From contig VFFE01008521.1 in NCBI GenBank assembly GCA_008921705.1, positions 186,001 through 250,000 on the forward strand: a DNA stretch of 64,000 nucleotides. The letters run 5' to 3'. Both the position numbers and the translations under genes were made by a program. Source of the stretch: Burhinus oedicnemus (taxonomy: Eukaryota > Chordata > Aves > Charadriiformes > Burhinidae). A model generated the notes under the pieces. It was not told where the DNA came from and did no database searches. It worked only from the letters and a program-made list of their open reading frames with translations. Below are positions 5,948-38,200 of this stretch, one piece after another (position 1 is the stretch's first letter; each line of letters opens with the position of its first letter).

Positions 5948-6391
5948 CTAGACCAGGTTGCTCAAAGCCTCATCCAACCTGGCCTTGAACACCTCCAGGG
6001 ATGGGGCCTCCACAGCTTCCCTGGGCAACCTGTTCCAGTGCCTTACGACTCTCATAGTGAAGAATTTCTTCCTGAGATCTAATCTAAATCTACCCTCTTC
6101 CAGTTTAAAACCATTACCCCTCGTCCTATCACTACATGCCCTTGTAAAAAGTCCCTGTCCAGATTTCCTGTAGGCCCCCTTCAGATACTGGAAGGCTGCT
6201 ATAAGGTGTCCCCAGAGCCTTCTCTTCTCCAGCCTGAACAACCTCAAGTCTCTCAGCCTGTCTTCATAGCAAAGGTGCTCCAGCCCTCTGATCATCTTCG
6301 TGGCCCTCCTCTGGACCTGCTCCAACAGGCCCATGTCCTTCTTATGCTGGGGGCTCCAGAGCTGGACGCAGTACTCCAGGTGGGGTCTCAT
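5948..6391 (-). pseudogene. CR1 ORF2 C-terminal region after a frameshift
   Basis: A frame of 147 residues starts with [19 protein letters not shown], includes [15 protein letters not shown] and RTRGNGFKL, and ends ALSNLV followed by stop. This is the normal CR1 ORF2 carboxyl end. It is separated from the RT part only by a small deletion in the [13 protein letters not shown] coding stretch. The Met used here is inside CR1 sequence and is not a biological start. Confidence 0.88.
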
Positions 6392-7833
6392 GAGAGTAGA
6401 GGGGCAGAATCACCTCCCTCGACCTGCTGGCCATGCTTCTTTTGATGCAGCCCAGGATACAGTTGGCCGCCTGGGCTGCGAGCACACATTGCTGGCTCAT
6501 GTTGAGCTTCTTAGCTACCAACACCCCTAAGTCCCTCTCCTCAGGGCTGCTCTTGTTCCATTCTCTGCCCAGCCTGTATTTGTGCTTGGGATTGCCCCGG
6601 TCCAGGTGCAGGACCTTGCACTTGGCCTTGTTGAGCTTCATGAGGTTGGCACAGGCCCACCTCTCAAGCCTGTCCAGGTCCCTCTGGATGGCATCCCTTC
6701 CCTCCAGCGTGTGAACCGCTCCACACAGCTTGGCATTGTCAGCAAACTCGCTGAGGCTGCACTCAATCCCACTGTCCAAGTCGCCAACAAATATGTTAAA
6801 TAGTACCGGTCTGAGTACCGACTCCTGAGGAACACCACTCATCACAGCATGCCCCTTGGACATCGACCTGTTGACCGCAACTCTCTGAGTGCAACCATCT
6901 AGCCAATTCCTTATCCGCCTGGTGGTCCATTGGTCAAATCCATGTCTCTCCAATTTAGAGACAAGGATGTTGTGCGGGACAGTGCCAAATGCCTTGCACA
7001 AGTCCAGGTAGATGATGTCTGTTGCTCTCCCCTTATCTGCCAAGGCTGTAACCTCATCATAGAAGGCCACGAAATTTGTCAGGCACAATTTGCCTTTAGT
7101 GAAGCCATGTTGGCTGCCACCAATCACCTCCTTATTTTCCATGTGTGTTAGCAGAGTTTCCAGGAGGATCTGCTTCGTGATAATGCTGGGCACAGAGGTG
7201 AGACTGACTAGCCTGTAGTTCCCTGGGTCATCTTTCTTACCCTTTTTGAAAATGGGGGTTATGTTTCCCCTTTTCCAGTCAGCGGAAACTTCACCAGACC
7301 GCCATGACTTCCCAAATATGATGGAGAGTGGCTTGGCAACTACATCCACCAGTTCTCTCAGGACCCGTGGATGAATGTCATCAGGTCCCGTGGACTTGTG
7401 CACATTCAGGTTCCTCAGCTGGTCTTGGACCTGGTGTTCTCCTACAGCGGGTGGTACCTCATTCTCCCAGTCCCTGCCTTTACCTTCTGCAACTTGGGCG
7501 CTGGGGTTAGAGCCTTCACCAGTGAAGTCTGAGTCAAAAAAGTTGTTAAGTACCTCAGCCTTCTCCATGTCCCGGGTGACGAGGTCTCCCGTTTCCTTCC
7601 TGAGTGGGCCCACATCTTCCCTAGTCTTCCTTTTGTCCCCAGTATACCTAGAGAAGGTTTTCTTGTTGCCCCTGACACGCCTGGCCAGATGTAACTCTAT
7701 CTGGGCTTTAGCTTTCCTAACCTGATCCCTGGCTGTCCAGACAATTTTTCTGAACTCCTCCCAGGCTACCTGTCCTTGCTTCCACCCTCTGTAGGCTTCC
7801 TTCTTCTGTTTGAGATTGTCCAGGAATATGTGC
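6342..7833 (-). pseudogene. CR1 ORF2 reverse transcriptase, 5'-truncated and catalytically altered
   Basis: The open frame reads minus strand from the truncation point through typical RT blocks: [46 protein letters not shown] and [14 protein letters not shown], then the catalytic-loop position, which reads FADNAKL instead of the family FADD. The second catalytic Asp is therefore Asn. The frame has no ATG of its own after the 5' truncation. It derails near 6390, where LPLYS should continue into the RPHLEYC block but runs out of frame and stops at 6342. It cannot encode an active enzyme. Confidence 0.88.
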
Positions 7834-9680
7834 CAAAGACATTTCCTGAGTTACAGCTTATGTGAATGCCATAGAATGCACGGGTCTTATTGTTACAAAT
7901 TTCTTTTTTTCTTTTGTTTTGGAACTTTTTAATTAAGAATTTTTCCCCCAGTTCTGGCTCAGACCAGTACAATAGCTGTAGCCTACCTAATCTAGGTGCA
8001 GCATCCAGGTAGGCATCTGGGAGCTAGCAGCCAGAGGCAGCAGGTGGCCTGCACTGCAGTGCATTAGTTCAGGTGCTCTTGAAATTGAAACATTGCAAGT
8101 CACAGCCTCCAGGTTGGACCTTAAGCAGTCCGAGTATGGAAAAACAAAACAGAAAGCCGGAAATTCCTCCAATCTCAGTTCTGATAAGGTTCCCTTTCAG
8201 GTCAGTGAAAAAAAAATTGCTTTCAATTATGTGTTTGTGATTAAAGCATTTGAAAACATTTAACAAAAGCTAGGAGATAAATTTCACAACTCATTTTATA
8301 CAGCTGCTGTGAAGAAATGAGTGTTAAGGTGAGCACGTAACCTTTATGTTATGTTTGCTGGGGATTATCATGCACGGAAGGGTAAAGGTAATTTTTATCG
8401 GTGTCTTTTATGATGATAAAAGGCACCAACACCATTGAGTAGAACAGTAAGCATACACAGAGATGTGTGATCGAAGGTTAAGAGAGTTTAGGCATTTGGA
8501 AGCAGTTCATGAGAACCCAGGGGAAAAGAAGAGTTACATGTTTTGGGTGGCCATGCGCTAAAGATGCAAGTGTGCAGGTGAACGCTGACCATGAAGCCTT
8601 GTGCAGTGTCACGCAGGGGTATGCAGCATGAGCAGCCCACGCAGAAGGGGCAGAATGAACCCTAACACCTTGTAATGTTGCAGGAATGGGTCGGCAAACA
8701 AAAGCTGCTCAGTGCTCTTCTTTTCCATCTGTCATTCAAGCTATTATTTTTAAAACAATACTGACGGAATCCCTCCTGTCCCAGAAGACCATGGTGTGGG
8801 CTCCAGTTGGCTGCAGCACGGGCAGCGCTGGAACATTGAAGAGATCCCCCCAGCAGACCTCCTCACAATGGCAAGCTGTCATTCCCTAGGTAGGGCGAGC
8901 TATGGGGGGCAGCGAAGCGTGTATTTAAGTGCATGCCTTTGTGTTTCACATGCGCCAGCAGCAAAGGCCTCATGACTTAATACCCAAAGGAATTGTTTCA
9001 GGTGTTACGAGGGTGCTCTACTGATTATAGACCTTTCTAGCCCTACCTCCCCCCTCCAATTGTCCTGTCTGTTCCTGCACCTTCACACTTGGCCCTGCCC
9101 CATTCTCCCTGCTTAAGAGAAAAAAAAATGCGGAGTGCTCCTCAGGGAGACCTTGCACCTCGCAAGGGTCTTGGTTCGTGGCTGCAAACCCATGGCAGCC
9201 AGACAACGGAACCTCCTTTCTATGCTGATTTGTGATCCCATAGTTCCCAGAGCTGGAGTAGGGTAAGAAGTTAGGTAACACAATAAGGATACAAACAATA
9301 GTAAACTGAACAAGTTAGAGACTAGATAGGTTTAGTGTAAGCAGTAGAGGAGCCCAGAAGAAGACTCCCGGATAACTGAGAGAGGAAGATAGCAGCCATT
9401 TGCTACACAGCTAATGAAAATGCTAGAATAGGTCTGTTGCAACACCACCTACTCAATAGACTGCCACTTGGCGTCCTCACCTTTTTAAACAAGGTCAGAC
9501 TGCTGCTGACAGTTTGAATGCTAATGCTTTTGCTGACAGCCATTCATGTGGAGTGTTCCTCCAGGCTAGTTCATGAGTCTGCTTGCACCTCCCTCACTCC
9601 TAGGTAAAATGGATCACTATTTTTAACACACAAGTTGTGGGGGAAGAGGGCTAGATAACATACCGACCTTTTTACTGCTT
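7834..9680. other. Intergenic, nothing recognised
   Basis: No coding exon or identifiable repeat. Composition is mixed, with GC slightly above the AT-rich average around 8550-8900 and 9030-9200. The open frames here have no domain-like features. Confidence 0.45.
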
Positions 9681-23402: not shown

Positions 23403-23985
23403 TATAATCACAGGATCACAGACAGGTTGATGTTGGAAGGGACCTCTGGAGGTCATCTGGTTCAACTCCCCTGCTCAAGTGGAGCCACCTAGAGCTAGTT
23501 GCTCAAGACTACGTCCAGTCATCTTTGAATATCTCCAAGGAGGGAGACTCCACAACCTCCCTGGGCAATCTGTGACAGGGCTTGGTCACCCTTACAGTGA
23601 AAAACTTTTTCCTGATGTTCAGAGGGAGCCTACTGTGTTTCAGTCTGTGCCCATGGCCTCTGGTCCTGTCACTGGGCACCACTGAAGAGAGCCTGGTTCC
23701 ATCCTCTGCACACCCTCCCTTCAGGTGTTTATATATGTTGATGAGATTCCCCTGAGCCTTCTCTTCTCCAGGCTGAACAGTCCCAGCTCTCTCAGCCTGT
23801 CCTCATAGGACAGATGCTCCAGTTCCTTGATCATCCTCATGGCCCTTTGTTGGACTTCCTCCAGTATGTCCATGTCTCTCTTGTACTGGGGAGCCCAAAA
23901 CAGGATACAATACTTCAGGTGTGGCCACAGCAGTGCTGAATACAGGGGGAGGATCACCTCCCTTGACCTACTTGCAACGCTGGCA
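23403..23985 (-). mobile_element. CR1 LINE 3' fragment, about 0.58 kb
   Basis: The 3' end is at the left, with degenerate octamers (TATAATCA CAGGATCACAGA), then GTTGGAAGGGACCTCTGGAGG. The ORF2 carboxyl region reads minus strand with [22 protein letters not shown] and [25 protein letters not shown]. The coding frame is lost before the normal RTRGNG and RLPREV blocks, and the stop is displaced. The 5' truncation is near 23985. Confidence 0.9.
23721..23985 (-). pseudogene. CR1 ORF2 C-terminal fragment
   Basis: About 85 residues of CR1 ORF2 carboxyl region are readable on the minus strand: [16 protein letters not shown], then [34 protein letters not shown], and after that the frame stops. It is the remnant of the element described at the same place, with no independent start and no expected product. 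Confidence 0.85.
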
Positions 23986-24886
23986 ATAATCATAACAATT
24001 GAAATATTTAATTTATTTTCACAAATAAAATTATTTAGAAGGATGATGCTAAATGATTTTGTAGAAGAAAAACATTCTATATTTAGGTTTTCTGATAACT
24101 TAGTGAACTCAAACCTGTAAGATCAGAATTGCAACTATGCTACTCATGAATACGTGAGATGGAAGGGAGATGTAGTTTGACTGAAAAGGACAGGAAAATA
24201 CCTTAGAAATGGTGTGCATTGCCTAATGTTTCTACAGTCAGAATCTGACCATCACTGCAGCACATCTAAAACATTTCACACACATAGTAGTCACATAATC
24301 AGCTTGTGGCACTTATAACGTGTCTGTGAGAAGGAAAGGGGCTCAGTTTCACTTGCATAGTAAGACATTTATTTGTGAGGAACGGTATTTAATATTCTTA
24401 TGGCATTAATTTTTCAGCTGTTACTGAATAGCAATGAAAACATTTGTCATGTAAAAATAAAAACTACAATAAAATAATCAAAGTCTGATGTTAACAGGTG
24501 AAAAATTATACAATAGGTTTAAGTGTGACAAAGAACCTGGGAAATACCATACCATTATAACCAGCAAGTCACAAGACAAAAGCAAAACACCTGAAAAATG
24601 CAGCCTTACACCTAGTATTGTTATCCTTCCCTTCACTGTGCCTGGCTCAGAAAGATTATTTTTCATGTTAGCAGAACTAGACTCCAGCTTTCACTTAGAT
24701 ACATTAAAAAAGAATAGTGAGGAGTGACAGTAGTCCTCTTATGTCCCCCTCAAAGTGATGTGAAAGTTATCAAGCAAAGGACAATTTCTCAGAGCAACTC
24801 CCTCCAGCACTGCTTTATCTCAGGTAATTGCTCATCCCCAGGCTGCCTGGACTCTTTCTGTAGAGAAGTCCAGCTCACATTTGACA
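23986..24886. other. Intergenic, nothing recognised
   Basis: AT-rich DNA between a CR1 end and the left retroviral target-site copy. No feature supported. Confidence 0.45.
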
Positions 24887-24892
24887 CCGTAT
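24887..24892 (+). repeat. Target-site duplication CCGTAT, left copy
   Basis: CCGTAT directly precedes the 5' LTR and is repeated exactly at 27006-27011 directly after the 3' LTR. Six base pairs is the usual size for alpha/beta-type (class II) retroviral integration, and its perfect state shows the element is one undisturbed provirus insertion. Confidence 0.9.
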
Positions 24893-25257
24893 TGAGGAGG
24901 AGTTAGGCACTGTAGGAATGAAAGGGTTAACAGGACTGAAGTACTGAAGGGTCTGGGTCACGTCCAAATGGAGGAGACTTGTGTGTCTGGAACAGGAGTA
25001 AAAACAAGATTAGAAGGAAATAAACGAGCGAGCGCATGACCTTTGTTTGTGAAAGAGGGAACTGCAAGGTTGTAAAAGACAGCCAATTGTATCAGCTAAA
25101 GGGACGCATGAAGGATGCGTGAACAGGACACATAAACCAATAAAAGATCACTTAGTGGCACATGTATAAACAAGTAGAAAGTATATAAGCAGTGTAATAT
25201 TTCAATAAAGGGTCTTCAATTTATCATCTATTGGAGTCCACGCACCAATCCGCTACA
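24893..25257 (+). repeat. 5' LTR of the class II ERV
   Basis: Begins TGAGGAGG and ends CGCTACA, so it has the TG...CA ends. A TATATAA box at 25182-25188 and an AATAAA at 25204-25209 lie close together near the 3' side, giving a short R region. The length equals that of the 3' LTR. Confidence 0.92.
25182..25188 (+). promoter_or_regulatory. TATA box in the 5' LTR
   Basis: TATATAA about 75 bases before the LTR end, followed 15 bases later by the LTR polyadenylation signal. Placement fits a U3/R promoter. Confidence 0.65.
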
Positions 25258-25259
25258 AA

Positions 25260-25273
25260 TGGCGCCCGAACAG
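25260..25273 (+). promoter_or_regulatory. Primer binding site, tRNA-Lys (UUU) type
   Basis: TGGCGCCCGAACAG starts two bases after the 5' LTR. It matches the first 14 bases of the site complementary to the 3' end of tRNA-Lys3, then diverges. This placement confirms the LTR boundary and the direction of the element. Confidence 0.85.
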
Positions 25274-25412
25274 AGGTCTTGAAGTCTGCGGGAACAGGAC
25301 TTGAAGTCTGCGGGACAGAATTGCGGTGGAGAGCAACCGGTAGCGGAGCCTGGCTGAACGAATAATCAGCGGTTGGAGAGCTGAAAAGTCCGAACGAAGC
25401 AATCACCCAAAT

Positions 25413-25420
25413 CAGGTGAG
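25413..25420 (+). promoter_or_regulatory. Probable retroviral major splice donor
   Basis: CAG|GTGAG, a strong donor, lies in the leader 18 bases before the gag start codon. This is the normal place for the donor used to make env mRNA. Confidence 0.55.
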
Positions 25421-25432
25421 CAGCCAGGAACG

Positions 25433-26383
25433 ATGGGGGCAACAATGTCTGCAGAAGAAAAGTCCGTGGTAACTGTGTTTAAGAAGATATTAGAGAAGCG
25501 CAGTATTAAGTATGACAAAATCCAACTGCATGTGTTGCTAGCCTGGCTTAAAAGCCGGGATGTAGCACCAGAATTGACTGAGGTATTTGAAACACGTACA
25601 TGGGAAACAGCTGGACAAGTTTTATGGGATGCAGCTACCAGGGGGGATTCCAGCGCAATGGGCTTGTTAACAACATGGCGCTTAGTTACAGACTCCTTAA
25701 AGCAACTAAAGGCAGATCGCACTGTAACAGCTGCTGCTGCAGCAGCCACTGGGGGAGAAAGACCAAAAGAAGCAGCGGCTGCCACGGCTAAAGAACTAGC
25801 ATCCACTGCACCTCCCATGCCTGATTTTCCACCACCACCACCACCTCCTATAAATATGGATTCATCGTTTGCAGAGGAACCGTACAAAGAGAAAAATAGA
25901 GGGGACTTTGAATGTGTTAAAACAGATTATGATCCAAGGAAACACTGGCAAGAGTTGCGGCAACAAGCTGATAAGAGTGGCGAGCACAATATTGCTGCTT
26001 TCATAGCGTGTCCTGTCATTCGAGACGCACAGGGATGGTGCGGCGCCTGCGGCCGGCTAGGGTGTGAGAAGTTAGTGGTGCTGCTGCGGTGCTGTGAGGG
26101 GACGGAGACGGCTGGGCTCTGTGAGCAGCGGCGGCCCCCGATCAGCGCGATGCTGACGGACGGCACCGCCACCTCCGGCAGCGGCGAGGATGAGGTGTCT
26201 GGGGTTGAATCATTTATTTTGGACCAAGAAGATCTTGATAACCTGGTACTTAAAACCACATCAGAGTTATTCTTACCGAGTGCTGCAGAAGGTGTGAACA
26301 CTGAATCAGACTGCCTTTTGTGTATCCATGGAACAACCAGAACAACCATTCCATATATATCTTGTGGGATTGCCTATAGATGA
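25433..26383 (+). CDS. Gag N-terminus fused in frame to a host-like segment
   Basis: An open frame of 316 codons. Residues 1-200: retroviral Gag start with an MGATMS myristoylation-type N-terminus, a basic helical matrix-like region, a long Ala-rich linker, a run of seven prolines at about residue 139 that could act as a late or SH3-binding motif, and a PVIRDAQG stretch as found just before the capsid. Capsid, nucleocapsid and protease are missing. From about residue 202 the frame passes into CpG-rich sequence, meets an in-frame Met at 26150, and continues as an acidic Ser/Glu-rich polypeptide (SGSGEDE, LDQEDLDNLVL). The last part crosses a second junction and stops at TGA 26381. The frame is uninterrupted, but whether it is expressed is unknown. 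Confidence 0.75.
   Translation: MGATMSAEEKSVVTVFKKILEKRSIKYDKIQLHVLLAWLKSRDVAPELTEVFETRTWETAGQVLWDAATRGDSSAMGLLTTWRLVTDSLKQLKADRTVTAAAAAATGGERPKEAAAATAKELASTAPPMPDFPPPPPPPINMDSSFAEEPYKEKNRGDFECVKTDYDPRKHWQELRQQADKSGEHNIAAFIACPVIRDAQGWCGACGRLGCEKLVVLLRCCEGTETAGLCEQRRPPISAMLTDGTATSGSGEDEVSGVESFILDQEDLDNLVLKTTSELFLPSAAEGVNTESDCLLCIHGTTRTTIPYISCGIAYR
26036..26303 (+). other. Putative captured cellular cDNA segment in the provirus
   Basis: From about 26036 to 26193 the sequence is strongly GC- and CpG-rich, unlike the AT-rich gag on its left and env on its right, and resembles a CpG-island 5' UTR. It holds an ATG at 26150 with a following MLTDGTATSGSGEDE reading. At about 26193-26197 GC drops sharply while the frame continues as VSGVESFILDQEDLDNLVL, as expected at a spliced exon 1/exon 2 junction. 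The right boundary is uncertain, between about 26290 and 26330. I do not recognise the gene. It could alternatively be an unusual retroviral region, but no retroviral family domain is visible. Confidence 0.6.
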
Positions 26384-26412
26384 CGTAGGGTTGATAAAAA
26401 AAGAGGCAGAAG

Positions 26413-26625
26413 GAAGACTAGCTACGTATCAGTGTAATTCTACCACCAATAATGTTAGTGTCTGCTTTGAAGTTTGGGATAAGTGGGTGGCTCAAATCAT
26501 TATTAAAAATGGGGCTATTGGTTGTCAGTATATTTTTATGTATCTTACTGTTTTTACCCTGTTTATTGTCATGTGTCCAAGGAATGATGCAGAAAATGGT
26601 GCAAAAATATATATATTGTTGAAAA
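26413..26625 (+). pseudogene. Env transmembrane (TM) C-terminal remnant
   Basis: Visible in the frame of the ATG at 26509 and opening after a TAG near 26412. A membrane-proximal GWLKSLLK leads to a hydrophobic helix (LLVVSIFLCILLFLPCLLS) and a short Cys-containing tail that ends at a TGA just before the polypurine tract. This is the usual end of a beta/gamma-type Env TM subunit. The ectodomain is absent and there is no signal peptide. Confidence 0.6.
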
Positions 26626-26627
26626 AC

Positions 26628-26639
26628 AAAAAGGGGGAA
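26628..26639 (+). promoter_or_regulatory. Polypurine tract
   Basis: An AAAAAGGGGGAA-type purine run ends one base before the 3' LTR and is the expected plus-strand primer site. Confidence 0.8.
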
Positions 26640-26640
26640 T

Positions 26641-27005
26641 TGAGGAGGAATTAGGCATTGTAGGATTGAAAGGGTTAACAGGACTGAAGTACTGAAGGGT
26701 CCAGGTCATGTCCAAAGGGAGGAGACTTGTGTGTCTGGAACAGGAGTAAAAACAAGATTAGAAGGAAATAAACGAGCGAGTGCATGACCTTTGTTTGTGA
26801 AAGAGGGAACTGCAAGGTTGTAAAAGACAGCCAATTTTATCAGCTAAAGGGACACATGAAGGATGCCTGAACAGGACACATAAACCAATAAAAGATCACT
26901 TAGTGGCACATGTATAAACAAGTAGGAAGTATATAAGCAGTGTAATATTTCAATACAGGGTCTTCGATTTATCATCTATCGGAGTCTGTGCATCAATCCG
27001 CTACA
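26641..27005 (+). repeat. 3' LTR of the class II ERV
   Basis: 365 bases, colinear with the 5' LTR with about 19 substitutions (about 14 transitions). The polyadenylation hexamer of the 5' copy is AATACA here (26952-26957), so normal 3'-end processing at this LTR is probably weakened. A cluster of changes lies near the U5 end. Confidence 0.92.
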
Positions 27006-27011
27006 CCGTAT
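27006..27011 (+). repeat. Target-site duplication CCGTAT, right copy
   Basis: Exact copy of 24887-24892, directly after the CTACA end of the 3' LTR. Confidence 0.9.
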
Positions 27012-30000
27012 CTTATCTGGAAATGTGAGATTCAATAGTTGTGCTCCTCCCAAGGTAACAGCTGTAGCACAAACAAGACACAGTCCCTTTGAGCTATAGG
27101 TTACAGATATCTAGGCCTGCTTATGCTGTAGCTTCAGTCATGAGTGCACCCGATGAACATTTTTTCCCCCTTTCCCCTGACTTAGAAAAGTCATCTTGTA
27201 TTTGTATCTTATTCATTACGCTTGTGTAACATCAAACTACCAGAAGTCAATATTGGTCAAGTGGTTAAGGGTTGGTGAACGTCTGCTGAACACAGTTGAA
27301 AATGGCTTCTAAAGGCAAGCATTCAACAACCTTAACAATAAAAATGGTCTGTGCTCTTCATTCTGCTTTTCGCTATGTCCATCACACACCACTCCCAGCT
27401 TCAGCCAAGAAGAAAAGCATTAAAACTACATGGATGTGGACATGTTACTAATCATCTCAGTGTGACACCCTCATGTTTAGTATTCATTAGTTGCTTAATG
27501 AAGTGTAAAGATGACCTTGGACCACCATAATTCCATTCTTATCCATGTCCACATCCATATCCATATCTAATCTTTCAAAGCTAATCCATCCTACAACAAA
27601 GTTGTAGACCTGAGTGATGGCGCAACATGGAGAAAGTTAAGACTTCCAGGTAGTCAGATCTCTGCACAGTATCCATTTTTCACCTGGAGAATGGCATTTT
27701 ATTACTCCTGTTATCTCAAAGCACACATCTACAAGCAAACACTGAAGCAAAAGTTTTCTCCTCATCCATGAAGCTCTTGGGCTATGCCTTTCCACTGATC
27801 ATCAGAATAATTTGCAAAATAAGCTGCACATTATGCTCAGTAGGTAGAACAGTTTAAAAAAATATTTGTTTGTTTCTCTTGTTAAGTTATAGTATTTTTC
27901 AGTCATCTTCTTTGAGGAAGCTCTGTATAGAGACCCAGGATATTTTGCCAAATGGTACTCCTGGAAGAGCCACCAGCTGTTGACAGCAGGCATTCAAGCC
28001 TGAATGGAGGCCTACTACATTTACCAAGATCAAATGCATGGATATGCCAAATCAACGTGATGCATTTACTTCTCCCCTGGACTATGTACATAAAGACAAA
28101 TTAAAATGTTGCGGGATTCTTATTTGGCATTGGTCTTGAGCCCCACTATAGGCATGGATCTGAGCAACCACATTTGGATCCTGATGTGACTCCCCACTCT
28201 TAAGAGGAACTGGAAACTAGGATCATGATGCAAGAAGAGCTGTACAATATGTACCAGAAAAGCTTATCTTTAACTAAAAAATAGTGCTATTATAACCCCA
28301 ACAGAGGTTTCTTGCATTAGTGAGGAGACTCAGTCTTCCTTTAATGGTCCTTTTTTTTCTCCTTGCAGAACTTCATCTGCTGGAAGTTATGCTTAGGGTT
28401 AATTCGTTAAGTCACTGTAAATAGACATAACCATTGTGTTTACCTAATTTCTCATCTAGACCAGTCTATGAGCTACAGTTTGCAAACTATTACAGAAAAT
28501 CAAACTAATTATGTATTGCTGATTACTTTACAGTGAAGAGGAACTCTAGAATCTGGTAAAAAGCAGTATCAGCAAAAGGTGAAAAAGTATATTTGAAGTC
28601 CAGGATGTCACAAAAAGGTTAAAGATGATGTTTAACTTGTGCTATGTAAACCAATTCAGTTTCTTTACAGTTCAGTTCCAAATCCATAATAAATAAACTG
28701 AATAAATATATTGAAATGGGAACATAAAAGCTTATTGGTTGAATAAATGCAGAAAAGTATTTTTAACAGAGACATTGGAGAAACTGCAATCATTAGTTTA
28801 AACTTTCCGTGGGCTCAAGTTAAGATTAAAAAACCCACCAATTCACATATAAATCTATAGTGAAAAAGCCCAATGAACAGTAAGAACTGTGGGTTAATAA
28901 AACATATCAGGTCAGACAAACCTGATACCCAAACCCACTGTAATTGCATGTGTCTTATATAAAGGCATTCTAGTGCATATAATGCCTATTGATTTCAGAA
29001 AAGCACTTGATATGATACTGAGTTATAAAACTTTTAGCATTTGGTGCCTGAGATACGAGGAAATATCATAATAGGTTGAAAAGGAGACTGATCGATGGAG
29101 GAACAAGATGATATATCACTGCATCCTCATTGGGCAGAACTGCTATTGAAGCAGAGGCTCTTCTCCTCAACAGAAAGTGGGATGACAGTTTCTATTGCCA
29201 AGATCTGGGAGAGGAGGCAATCAGAAAATGCATTTGTGCTTCCCTAAAATGTCTTCTTTTTTTTTTTGAGAGGAAAATGGCTGATAATTCATTACAAAGG
29301 GTGTATTTGCACTCAGAATTTTTTATTAATTTGTTTGTCTCTTGGCACACAGATATCTCTAGAAAGTGCAGCTTGGGAGCAGGAATTATTCTCTGAAAGA
29401 TTTTTAACATTCAGAAAGCTCCACAATGACAAGCACAACAGCTCTTCTTCCCAGTTGTTTCTGGAGCTAAACTTCTATACTATGTTGTTTAAAGAATCCC
29501 ATGAAATGTGTGGATTCTCAAAGAATGTTTTGATGTTTCTATAAAAACTATGATGTTTCCTGGAATCTTTAGTTCTCAACTCATGGGTTGCAGTGAAACC
29601 AAAAAGCCCCAGTTGCAGGACAGTCCATATGGCAGAGCTGTGGAGGCTGGGACACGAAAGCCTTGGGAAACATGCTTCTCCAGGCCTCCAGTCTGCTCAA
29701 CAGGGTGTCAAGTACCAGCATAGATGGGAACAACTTCCTGTGAGATTATGGTGATTTTAAGACAAAATGGGCGGTTTCTTCTTGAAGATTTGAGTGGATG
29801 GAAAACAAATGTTCTATGCAAAATGAACAAAAAGTGCATTTCTCTCCAGCTGAGAATTTTCAGAGCCAAGACTCAAATCTACTCCCCTAAATGGCAGATT
29901 TTATGCCATTTATCTTAGGATTCAAGAACTTCTCCTGCCACATGGTAAATTCCATGTAGCAAGATCTAACTCCTTTTCAGCTTTTTCCTTGCAAGGCCCC

Positions 30001-31420: not shown

Positions 31421-32194
31421 CACAGAATCACAGGGGTTGTAAGGGACCTCTGGAGATCATCTAGTCCAACCCCCCTGCAAGAGCAGGTTCATCTAGAGCA
31501 GGTTGCAAAGGATGGCATCCAGGTGGGTTTTGAATGTCTCTAGAGTTGGAGACTCCACCACCTCTCTGGGAAGCCTGTTCCAGTGCTCTGCCACCTTCAA
31601 GGGAAAGAAGTTTCTCCTCATGTTTAGATGGAACTTCCTAGGTTCAAGTTTGTGCCCATTACCTCTTGTCCTATCACTGGGCACCACTGCAAAAAGACTG
31701 GTCCCATCCTCCCAGCACCCTCCCTTGAAGTATTTATCAGCATTGATGAGATGCCCCCTCAGTCTTCTCTTCTCCAGACTAAAAAGACCCAAGTCCCTCA
31801 GCCTTTCCTCATAAGAAAGATGTTCCAGCCCCCTAATCATCTTTGTAGTCCTCTGCTGTACCCTCTCCAGCCGTTCCCTGTCCTTCTTGAACCAGGGAGC
31901 CCAGAAGTGGACACAGTACTCCAGGTGTGGCCTCACCAGGGCAGAGTAGAGGGGGAGGATAACCTCCTGCGACCTGCTTGCCACACACCTCTTGATGCAC
32001 CCCAGGATGCCATTGGCCTTCTTGGCCACAAGGGCCCATTGCTGGCTCATGGTCATCCTGTTGTCCACTCCCAGGTCCCTTTGCACAGAGCTGCTTTCCA
32101 GCAGGTCAGCCCCTAACCTGTACTGGTGCGTGGGGTTATTCCTCCCCAAGTGCAGGACCCTACACTTGCCCTTGTTGAACTTCATGAGGTTCCT
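31421..32194 (-). mobile_element. CR1 LINE 3' fragment, about 0.77 kb
   Basis: The 3' end at the left has CACAGAAT (31421-31428) followed by a partial second octamer and the GTAAGGGACCTCTGGAGATC end. ORF2 carboxyl region follows on the minus strand. The 5' truncation lies at about 32194, just inside the [16 protein letters not shown] block after the RT catalytic loop. Confidence 0.93.
31493..32185 (-). pseudogene. CR1 ORF2 C-terminal 230 residues, open
   Basis: A continuous frame from [14 protein letters not shown] through [52 protein letters not shown] and [20 protein letters not shown] to the normal end ILCNLL and stop. About three codons seem missing between RDLGV and DNRM, where the family has a longer linker. 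The RT active-site region is not included, so no enzyme is possible. Confidence 0.88.
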
Positions 32195-35041: not shown

Positions 35042-35110
35042 TGCCGTTGCCGGGGAGGGGAGGGGAGCGGAGCGGAGGGAGCGGCGGAGAGGAGCCGGGC
35101 GGGCCGCGCC

Positions 35111-35216
35111 ATGCGGCTGTGCGGGGCGCTGCTGAAGAGCCCCATCCCCAAGCAGATCGAGTACTACTCCCGCTTCTCCCCCTCGCCCCTCTCCATCAAG
35201 CAGTTCCTCGACTTCG
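35111..35216 (+). CDS. PDK3: PDK3 exon 1 coding part
   Basis: The first ATG in good context (G at -3) opens directly on the conserved PDK3 N-terminus. The exon ends GACTTCG|GTGAGT, splitting a Gly codon after its first base. The GC of the exon is very high because it sits in the CpG island. The ORF that continues past 35216 is intron read-through and not protein. Confidence 0.95.
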
Positions 35217-38200
35217 GTGAGTGGCGGGGTTGTCCGCCATATCCCCCTCGCTCCCTCCCCCTCCTCCTCCTCCTCCCCCCGGGGTGGGGGGTGGGGGTCA
35301 CCCCGGCTCTCCCGCCGCGCAGGAGCGGCCAGGGCCCACCCGGGGCGGGGGGAGCGGCGGCGGAGGCGGCCGGCGCTTAGGCCTCGTCTCCTCGCCCAGC
35401 AGTATTTGGGTGGCGGGGCCCACCCCTGCCTGCGGCCTGGGCAGCCCGAGGAGCGCAGTCAGGGCGAGGGGCGGCCGGGCGATGGGCCCTGCCACCGTGG
35501 GGCCGGCCCGGCCCGGCTTGGCGGCGGCGGCTCCCCCGATCCGGGAGGCCCCGCAGGCTGGCGGGGGTCGGTGTGTGTGTGTGCGAGGCGGGCGGCTGCG
35601 GTGACAGCCAGGCGTGCGCGGTCGTCGGCAGCCGGTGGTAAACACCGCCGCTGCTCCGCCTGGCCACCTCGGCCTGCTGAGGTGAGGCGGCAGGAGACTG
35701 GAGGAGCAGGCTGGGCTCCGTCTTTCCTTGCGTTGTTCCCAGACAGCAAGGGTCAAAACAAGGGTTTCTGACCTGAAATGTTGTGAGCTTAGCGATTTGA
35801 AGGAGTGATGAGTAAGTTGCTCATCATGAGTGTGAAATTTTTCACCTGCCCTGCAGAGATTGGCTTAATTAAACCTCAGGTGTGATCTTCGATAGTACTT
35901 GTGTAGGAGACCTGTTTGTGGAAAATTCATGCACTTTAGGAAGTGTTGCTGATGAATGAATAGCATTTTTCTTTTCAGAAGCACTGGACTGAAACCCAGG
36001 AATGACTTGGGTTGCTGTGAGAAAACTGACATTTTGATCTAGATAACAATAAACTTCTCATGTCTGTATCAGAGGTTATTTGGTTGCTGCTGTCTGACAC
36101 GAGAGTTGCTTAGATTTTGTTATCCTATGAATGTTGCTGGTAGAGTAAATATAAAGGCCATGTGTAACACCATGAAGCTTAATAGACAGTTCCTTCATTC
36201 CAGTATCACACTAAAGGTACAAGAAGAGAAAAATGAGTCAGTGGTGTTAAACCAGAAAACGATTAAAAGTGGAAACAATTGCACATTCATGGCAATGTTA
36301 TTAGTGAAAGAATGCTGCAAGTATAAAGAGCCAGCACTGGGCTTGCTCCCATGTCTCAGTGAGACAGGGTTTTCTACCCTTCTAAAAAACATCACACCTT
36401 GTCCTGTGATACATTAAAAGGAGAGCCTGACTAGAACCCCTGCTTTCCTTCTCTAGTCTCTGCTCACGTGAGTCTGTTCTTACTTCCCCACCCCTTCCTT
36501 TGCTGCTGTGCTTCCTCTGTTCTGGCATTTGTGCTCCCTATGCCATGTCTTTCTGTACTGGCAAGAGCAATGGCCTAAAACTTAGAATATCTTACTTTTA
36601 CCCCTGGCACTAAACAAATCATTTCACCATTGTCTATCTGGAAGTTTGGTTTGTAAATTGTTGCTGGGGAAGTATTAATGTTCACAAAGTTTTTCAGTTG
36701 TGACTAGAGAGGTGTAAAGATTTCAGTCTTTGCTTTAATGACTTGCGTGTTCTGGCAAAACTTTGCTTTTTGGTAAGGATTTCTACTATTCTAAGTTGTT
36801 CCTGCATTACTGCTTGTTTTTGGACATCTCCTGTGTGCCAGCCTTTTAATAATGCCTTTTTTTTTTTTTTTTAACCTTGTAGTATCTGTATTACTTTATG
36901 TTTTGAAAATTGTCGCCTGATTCTCCAGGAAAAAGTAGTCTCATTTTATGATTTTAAGCCTAGTTTATATTAGTGGAAATGAACAGGGTAAAAATGGTAT
37001 GTTACAGCCTGGCCAGCCCTGTTCTTTGGATGTGCTCCAGTCTGTTGTCACTGGATGTGTCTGTGGAATCTTGTGTGTGCACAGGCTATGTGTTTAAGTG
37101 TATTCATGTCTTAAGACTAACAGGAAACTATATAGGCTTTGACATTTAAAACCTCTGAAGAAAAAACATGCCTACAGTTTAGGCTTCTAAGATTGCCAGG
37201 AGTTTCTAAGATTAGTAGTCTTACGTCGCATCAGCCTTGCTAAAGCTATCAGCTTGATCTTAATAAGCCTTATGAGCCATTTAGCATCTCCACTTACTTT
37301 CTCTTTAGTGCCTATGTTTACTTAGGAAACCTCAAGTAGAAAGATTACAGCAGTTTAATCAAATAGATTAAAACCAATGTAGTTACTTAACTTGTGTGAT
37401 CCTAGGTGTTGATGGCTTTGGGTAATTTCAAGTTCTGTTGGAGACTTCAGAGGCCTAGAGGAGAAATTCGCAAGAAACATAAGATGTTGGTGCAAGAATT
37501 TTACCACTGGAGGCATGGAAGACCTGGACAATATGCACTGTATCAGGGAGCTATGTTACTTAAATTACCCAAAAAAGAATTTGCTGGTGGCATAGGATAC
37601 AAGTATTCGAGAGAGCAAGTATGCCAATCATAAGGAGCTTGATTCTACAGGTGGAGTTCAGTTGTGTTTGCCTAGCCTGACTGTTTGATGGGAAGAAGAC
37701 ACTCTGTTTTGTAGTCAGCTTATAGAAGCTACCTAATGTCTCACTTAAAAAGAAATGGCATTTTTGTTTAGCTATGTAAATGTAGTGCTTGTGTTACAAA
37801 AAGATCACTAAATTTTCAACAAACATTAAAAAAGAATAAGCCCAAAGGAAATGTGTGAATGACCCTCTCGTGGCAGTCTGTGACTTTGTTGTCTAGTGTA
37901 TGTATGTTTCCTGTATAAAAAAGAGGAATTTGCACTTACTGCAATTCAGGTTTTTTTTGGAGAAGGATTTTTTTACTTCATGTCTGACAATAATGAAAAC
38001 TACAATATGGTCTTTATGTCTTCTTTTTTGTATTAGTTATTGGTTTAGACTAAACTGGCTTCTAAATTTGTCTCTGCAAAATCTTGGTGAGCATGGGGAG
38101 AGAAACTATTTCTCACGGGCTGGAGTTTCTTCAAACAGTTGGTGGCAATGTATACTGGCATACAGCTTAGACTTTTTTTTTTTATTGCTAATTAACAGTG

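Follow-up and report, generated by a model that had tools for sequence, protein, structure and literature searches.

What is known about host-gene capture by retroviruses comes mainly from tumour viruses that were caught afterwards. In MC29 and MH2, two acutely transforming gag-onc viruses of birds, a host segment without introns follows the N-terminus of Gag in the same reading frame; pol is lost and the viral ends are kept. Endogenous retroviruses (ERVs) of crocodilians captured KIT-ligand (CrocERV29) and nectin3 (CrocERV31; six insertions); these are apparently whole host proteins, located between pol and env or replacing env, and purifying selection was reported (PMC4299795). Here we describe a provirus of 2,113 bp (24893-27005) that lies in 64,000 nucleotides of DNA from Burhinus oedicnemus (contig VFFE01008521.1, positions 186,001 to 250,000; the whole of this stretch is called the window) and carries such a capture in an unusual form.

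We conclude, with a probability of about 0.88, that a class II ERV which was already without most of its env gene took up, through template switching, the 5´ end of a spliced mRNA whose gene encodes ankyrin repeats and a KH domain and is read as ANKHD1. The features of a host-gene transduction were found here: the host gene is present elsewhere in the genome, the introns are removed, the host segment lies inside the long terminal repeats (LTRs) and viral genes are replaced.

The provirus shares with MC29 and MH2 the overall structure given above, but it is found in the germ line in several copies and is known here from germ-line copies alone, its host part consists of a 5´ untranslated region (UTR) and 48 N-terminal codons in which no domain was found, and env was already a remnant before the capture. 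Non-autonomous LTR elements that are copied in trans, such as mouse ETn beside MusD, offer a second parallel, since in both cases gag-pol was replaced, the cis-acting ends were kept and pol-bearing relatives share the LTR; in contrast to ETn, the source of the replacing sequence was identified here, as a spliced host gene that is carried by the same genome. As in CrocERV29 and CrocERV31, an ERV captured a host mRNA and was later multiplied, whereas here just the 5´ end of the mRNA was taken, it was fused to gag, gag-pro-pol was lost and no significant selection was found (PMC4299795). The 6-bp target duplications, a Lys-type primer site and an integrase whose nearest PDB chains we take to be those of mouse mammary tumour virus (MMTV) are features of avian ERVK-type (class II) elements (PMC11009239), from which the provirus differs in carrying a host segment. 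A narrow literature search of titles and abstract openings yielded neither an ANKHD1 capture nor a germ-line gag-host fusion from a bird among the matches listed. Compared to the known captures, the variant features are the uptake of just the 5´ end of an mRNA, without a known domain, the loss of gag-pro-pol, the env-less start and the germ-line multiplication of a gag fusion.

Since one genome contains the donor gene, the insert-less relatives and four descendants, the crossovers are open to direct reading, and one of them may lie at the 5´ end of the donor mRNA. Moreover, the findings suggest that a captured fragment in which no domain is known can nevertheless multiply through copying in trans; a useful or oncogenic protein would then not be required as the driving force of germ-line transduction.

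Donor gene and layout of the provirus

The search of the bird's own assembly (1.17 Gb, 1,504 contigs) with positions 26030-26330 as query gave eight candidates, all of which were scored: four insert-bearing loci (100, 91, 89 and 87%), two host exon pieces and two relatives that match in env only. Both host pieces are located on the same strand of contig C989, with 92% and 93% identity. The first is the first exon of the host gene, with its start codon at L005:1614 and a splice donor at its end, the second begins directly after an acceptor AG, and by coordinates the intron between them is about 15.3 kb long. The provirus has the two exons fused precisely at these splice sites (26203|26204), and thus the insert derives from spliced RNA. 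Between copies and host, the Kimura two-parameter (K2P) distances are 0.035-0.073 over 88 nucleotides of the 5´ UTR and 0.022-0.084 over 91 nucleotides of exon 2. Ankyrin repeats followed by a KH domain (KH_1) are encoded farther along C989 on the same strand; the captured segment contains neither. From domain order and residues, we take the donor to be ANKHD1 and not its paralogue ANKRD17.

The earlier note on this DNA had proposed that a cellular mRNA was captured and had predicted a match to the 5´ UTR and the first two exons of one host gene without the intron; both are borne out by the exons on C989. Its insert, drawn from 26036 to 26330, proved too long: the host-derived segment (about 260 bp) extends from 26033/26039 to 26296, and the last 34 bases belong to env and are common to the two insert-less relatives.

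That the insert might be an ordinary piece of this retrovirus family, the outcome which the note had named as speaking against a capture, has next to no probability. Three other copies of the family do carry the insert, as such a piece would; however, it matches two separate host exons, and gag of both insert-less relatives continues with other sequence at the point where the chimera has the insert. Hence ordinary ERV sequence was rejected as a candidate, contradicted by the exon matches on C989 and by these relatives. Within the window, the insert matched nowhere else beyond a single 14-base match.

The absence of the intron would also fit a processed copy of the host mRNA, made by a long interspersed nuclear element (LINE) and inserted into the provirus, but the insert shows no poly(A), no mRNA 3´ end and no target duplication of its own. 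In addition, about 4.35 kb of virus were replaced rather than split, and exon 2 meets env at a short overlap. We consider a LINE-made copy highly improbable. A processed pseudogene was likewise rejected, since neither a poly(A) tail nor a separate target duplication was found at the insert. The host segment sits between viral sequences inside the LTRs, with a single outer target duplication, in the following order:

24887..24892, no strand: target duplication CCGTAT, left copy, 6 bp (read from sequence)
24893..25257, + strand: 5´ LTR with TG...CA ends, TATATAAG at 25182-25189 and AATAAA at 25204-25209 (comparison; motifs read)
25260..25277, + strand: Lys-type primer-binding site (read from sequence)
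25415..25416, + strand: splice donor CAG|GTGAGC, 5´ of the Gag start codon (read from sequence)
25433..26383, + strand: Gag-host fusion frame, open, 316 codons and stop (open reading frame listing)
25433..26038, + strand: viral part of Gag, putatively matrix, linker and about 10 capsid residues (domain names inferred)
26033..26038, + strand: left junction zone gag|host, GGGCGG, with 2 changes in the window copy (GGGCGG shared by insert-less relative and host exon)
26039..26149, + strand: host 5´ UTR, translated as an open linker (host comparison)
26150..26203, + strand: coding part of host exon 1, beginning at the host ATG position; exon 1 lacks 222 bp (host comparison)
26181-26190, + strand: 10-bp direct repeat at the exon-1 loss, with 1 change in the window copy (host comparison)
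26203..26204, + strand: exon1/exon2 splice joint, exact (host comparison)
26204..26296, + strand: host exon-2 part (host comparison)
26292..26296, + strand: right junction zone host|env, GCGCG, with 2 changes in the window copy (GCGCG present both in host exon 2 and in one of the two insert-less relatives)
26297..26622, + strand: env remnant with a membrane-spanning tail at its end; layout matches two insert-less relatives (comparison)
26628..26640, + strand: polypurine tract, abutting the 3´ LTR (read from sequence)
26641..27005, + strand: 3´ LTR (LTR-LTR alignment)
27006..27011, no strand: target duplication CCGTAT, right copy (read from sequence)

Most of the layout had been recognised in the earlier note. 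The perfect 6-bp target duplications (CCGTAT at 24887-24892 and 27006-27011, flanking the provirus), the Lys-type primer site at 25260 (by comparison with the canonical site), the consensus splice donor of the leader at 25415|25416 and the polypurine tract directly adjoining the 3´ LTR are all present. The paired 365-bp LTRs (24893-25257 and 26641-27005) align without a gap and show 94.8% identity (19 mismatches, K2P 0.054), which corresponds to an age of about 8-14 million years if avian rates of 1.9-3.3e-9 per site and year apply. The Env membrane tail is supported in a different way: its Pfam match to GP41 is weak and below the cut-off (E 0.037), yet the same sequence is found downstream of integrase in the insert-less relatives. 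Correctly described, too, was the CpG-rich insert in frame with Gag, which lies in the 316-codon frame 25433-26383 and has a CpG observed/expected ratio of 0.93 (26038-26210) versus 0.24 in the whole window. The abrupt end of Gag stands as well, but not its position before the capsid, since about 10 capsid residues appear to be present, judging from the sequence.

Two further observations were made on C989. The assembly contains nearly 20 kb of N between exon 2 and the ankyrin/KH exons (L011-L013, roughly 46-66 kb), in a part of the gene in which more exons would be expected, and long open frames inside the host gene region (L016:6729-9000) give the impression of another retroelement.

Insert-less relatives and the junctions

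Two relatives without the insert, on contigs C1288 and C1009, have the LTR and the env remnant in common with the chimera. In both, RNase H and integrase sequence is located upstream of the env remnant (Pfam was run on the C1288 relative), and leader and gag follow farther upstream with 85-93% identity. For the C1288 relative, which was read outside its middle 2.6 kb, the coordinates give a length of about 6.16 kb, LTR to LTR, and about 4.35 kb between its gag and env, where the integrase end was read, are absent from the chimera. The env remnant is the same in both relatives; the loss of env is therefore older than the capture, and the family probably spread inside cells. The loss of pol and of most of env had been suspected before: the loss of gag-pro-pol holds, while env was not lost in the capture. 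Similarly, the search for a parent provirus with the same LTR, suggested as a check, led to relatives with gag and RNase H/integrase sequence, though not to an intact env.

Both 6-bp target duplications and a pol nearest to beta/alpha-like retroviruses, features of class II (ERVK-type) elements, were found here. The integrase of one relative (L007) gave its best PDB matches at E 1.6e-37, to chains that we take to be those of MMTV, followed by the avian sarcoma virus group from E 4.8e-24. The LTR search of the assembly returned 89 candidates, 40 of which were scored and 30 read as loci. Two of these are the window's own LTRs and one (L043) has adjacent leader and gag; within 1.5 kb of the other 27 of the 28 loci outside the window (L026-L054 except L027), none of leader, gag, insert and env is present, which is the picture that solo LTRs should give.

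The junctions fall at short shared sequences, and short overlaps of this kind are the expected outcome of template switching by reverse transcriptase; we therefore regard template switching as the likely mechanism. At the left join, an insert-less relative and the host share six nucleotides, GGGCGG (random-join frequency 0.003), and at the right join, the host and relative L008 share five, GCGCG (0.007). Furthermore, all four chimeric copies lack the same 222 bp of host exon 1; this loss is in frame and is located at a 10-bp direct repeat, and a repeat of at least 10 nucleotides had a frequency of 0.001 among random joins in the same sequences. CCAAT boxes are located 31 and 62 nucleotides upstream of the left join on the host sequence, with a third 199 nucleotides away, and no TATA box was found near the join in the host stretch scanned. 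For this reason, the left join is probably close to the start of the mRNA and may mark the 5´ end of the donor transcript.

The capture could thus be pictured as follows. Minus-strand synthesis would leave env at the shared GCGCG and enter exon 2 of a co-packaged cellular mRNA, skip 222 bp of exon 1 at the direct repeat, continue toward the 5´ end of the mRNA and re-enter gag at GGGCGG. On the way, the virus would lose about 4.35 kb, chiefly gag-pro-pol. The resulting chimera, retaining LTRs, primer site, leader and polypurine tract, would be a passenger that is probably copied in trans by the Gag-Pol of its relatives.

Classical read-through transduction is the textbook route for gag-onc viruses. 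Here a provirus upstream of or inside the host gene would have been fused to it through gag by a DNA deletion, and the spliced transcript would have been packaged, with one template switch to env. This route would account for the gag-host order, for the missing intron and for the origin from a single host gene. However, the left join lies near the presumed mRNA start, with the CCAAT boxes 31 and 62 nucleotides upstream, no upstream promoter DNA is carried along, and the join itself falls at a 6-nucleotide shared sequence, which favours a jump at or near the mRNA end. Overall, we regard read-through as unlikely.

Several points weigh against a capture of ANKHD1 mRNA by template switching, or against details of it. 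The name ANKHD1 was not given by any search. The relatives on C1288 and C1009, both read outside their middle part, are candidates for the parent and need not be the parent itself. The right-hand overlap amounts to five nucleotides with one relative and to just three with the other. At the exon-1 loss, the host sequences on either side resemble each other for about 18 nucleotides, so that the break cannot be placed exactly. The gag and env trees alone do not prove a single origin of the chimeras, and the in-frame fusion could hint at coding selection, for which the test was not significant.

Further copies and the fusion frame

Three further loci (L002, L003 and L004) carry the chimera with junctions that agree with those of the window copy, showing that the hybrid multiplied after the capture. 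By eye, L002 is flanked by its own duplication TTTGCT (6/6 bases) and L003 by CAGGGA (6/6, read past an altered LTR end), and in L004, which has a truncated 5´ LTR, five of six duplication bases match. Three of the four chimeric copies thus lie between 6-bp target duplications of their own at separate loci. The K2P distances of the LTR pairs are 0.054 (window), 0.043 (L002), 0.102 (L003) and 0.055 (L004, 189 bp compared). In the gag part, distances among the four copies (0.058-0.080) are similar to those to the two relatives (0.060-0.091), and branches are short in both the gag and the env tree, with support values of 0.43-0.89. The single origin of the four copies is therefore deduced from the shared junctions and not from the trees, and a single capture seems to have given rise to at least four separate insertions. 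The locus had been seen before as a germ-line copy of a transduction; the transduction holds, but it is no lone event, since the chimera forms a small family with four copies or more, three of which were found when the assembly was searched for other insert-bearing copies as proposed.

In L004 (contig C1196), the first 170 bp of the 5´ LTR are absent, and the adjoining sequence is presumably CR1-like.

The fusion frame runs from the Gag N-terminus, which by its sequence probably reaches about 10 residues into the capsid, through the CpG-rich segment into about 28 codons of the env remnant, out of the env frame. A single-sequence model of the matrix is helical (predicted local distance difference test score 67.6); its best Foldseek match is the Rous sarcoma virus matrix at a weak E 0.12, with no match at E 0.001 or better. 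With the matrix, Pfam gave no match and the sequence search of PDB none that was significant, and nothing at or above the curated cut-off was found in PDB and Pfam with fusion, insert or matrix. No usable match was obtained in viral contigs with insert, gag and env, in prokaryote contigs with the insert, in phage records with gag or in Rfam with 24000-28000. The fusion protein, consisting of matrix together with a probably disordered stretch of linker and 48 host codons, most likely has no function of its own.

If the protein were useful to the element or the host, selection should have kept it. The frame is open in three of the four copies, namely in the window (316 codons), L003 (315) and L004 (301), at LTR divergences of 0.054, 0.102 and 0.055, whereas in L002 it stops near the start of the capsid. 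The gaps in gag sum to multiples of three, and the pooled dN/dS (ratio of nonsynonymous to synonymous rates) is 0.56 for the fusion and 0.41 for the host coding part. In a test with a fixed mutation spectrum, which assigned 102 of 103 changes to a class and excluded 25 tied columns, the excess of synonymous changes was nevertheless not significant (36 versus 31.3 expected, P 0.18), stops were not significantly low (1 versus 2.7 expected, P 0.24) and the host coding part alone showed 8 synonymous changes versus 8.0 expected. The chance that the window frame is open at the LTR-derived rate is about 0.02-0.45, depending on the assumed indel rate, so that an open frame is expected in about 2-45% of trials. 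Since the selection tests are not significant and an open frame is plausible by chance, we read the fusion protein as a passenger and consider its maintenance by selection quite improbable. Slightly less probable still is the specific idea that the fusion of Gag matrix and ANKHD1 is a working protein, for instance a membrane-targeted Gag decoy that modulates relatives, with the open frame in three of four copies as its trace.

Neighbourhood of the provirus

The provirus is located about 8 kb upstream of a GC-rich segment on the + strand (35042-35377) that looks like the first coding exon of PDK3; it has no Pfam match, and its best PDB match is pyruvate dehydrogenase kinase isozyme 3 (E 1e-10). 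LINE pieces, presumably of the avian CR1 type, are found at 5948-7850, 23721-24122 and 31493-32194 (- strand), one of them about 0.8 kb from the provirus. Pfam was applied to the first of these pieces only and revealed an RVT_1 match in 6345-7847 (E 5.8e-22).
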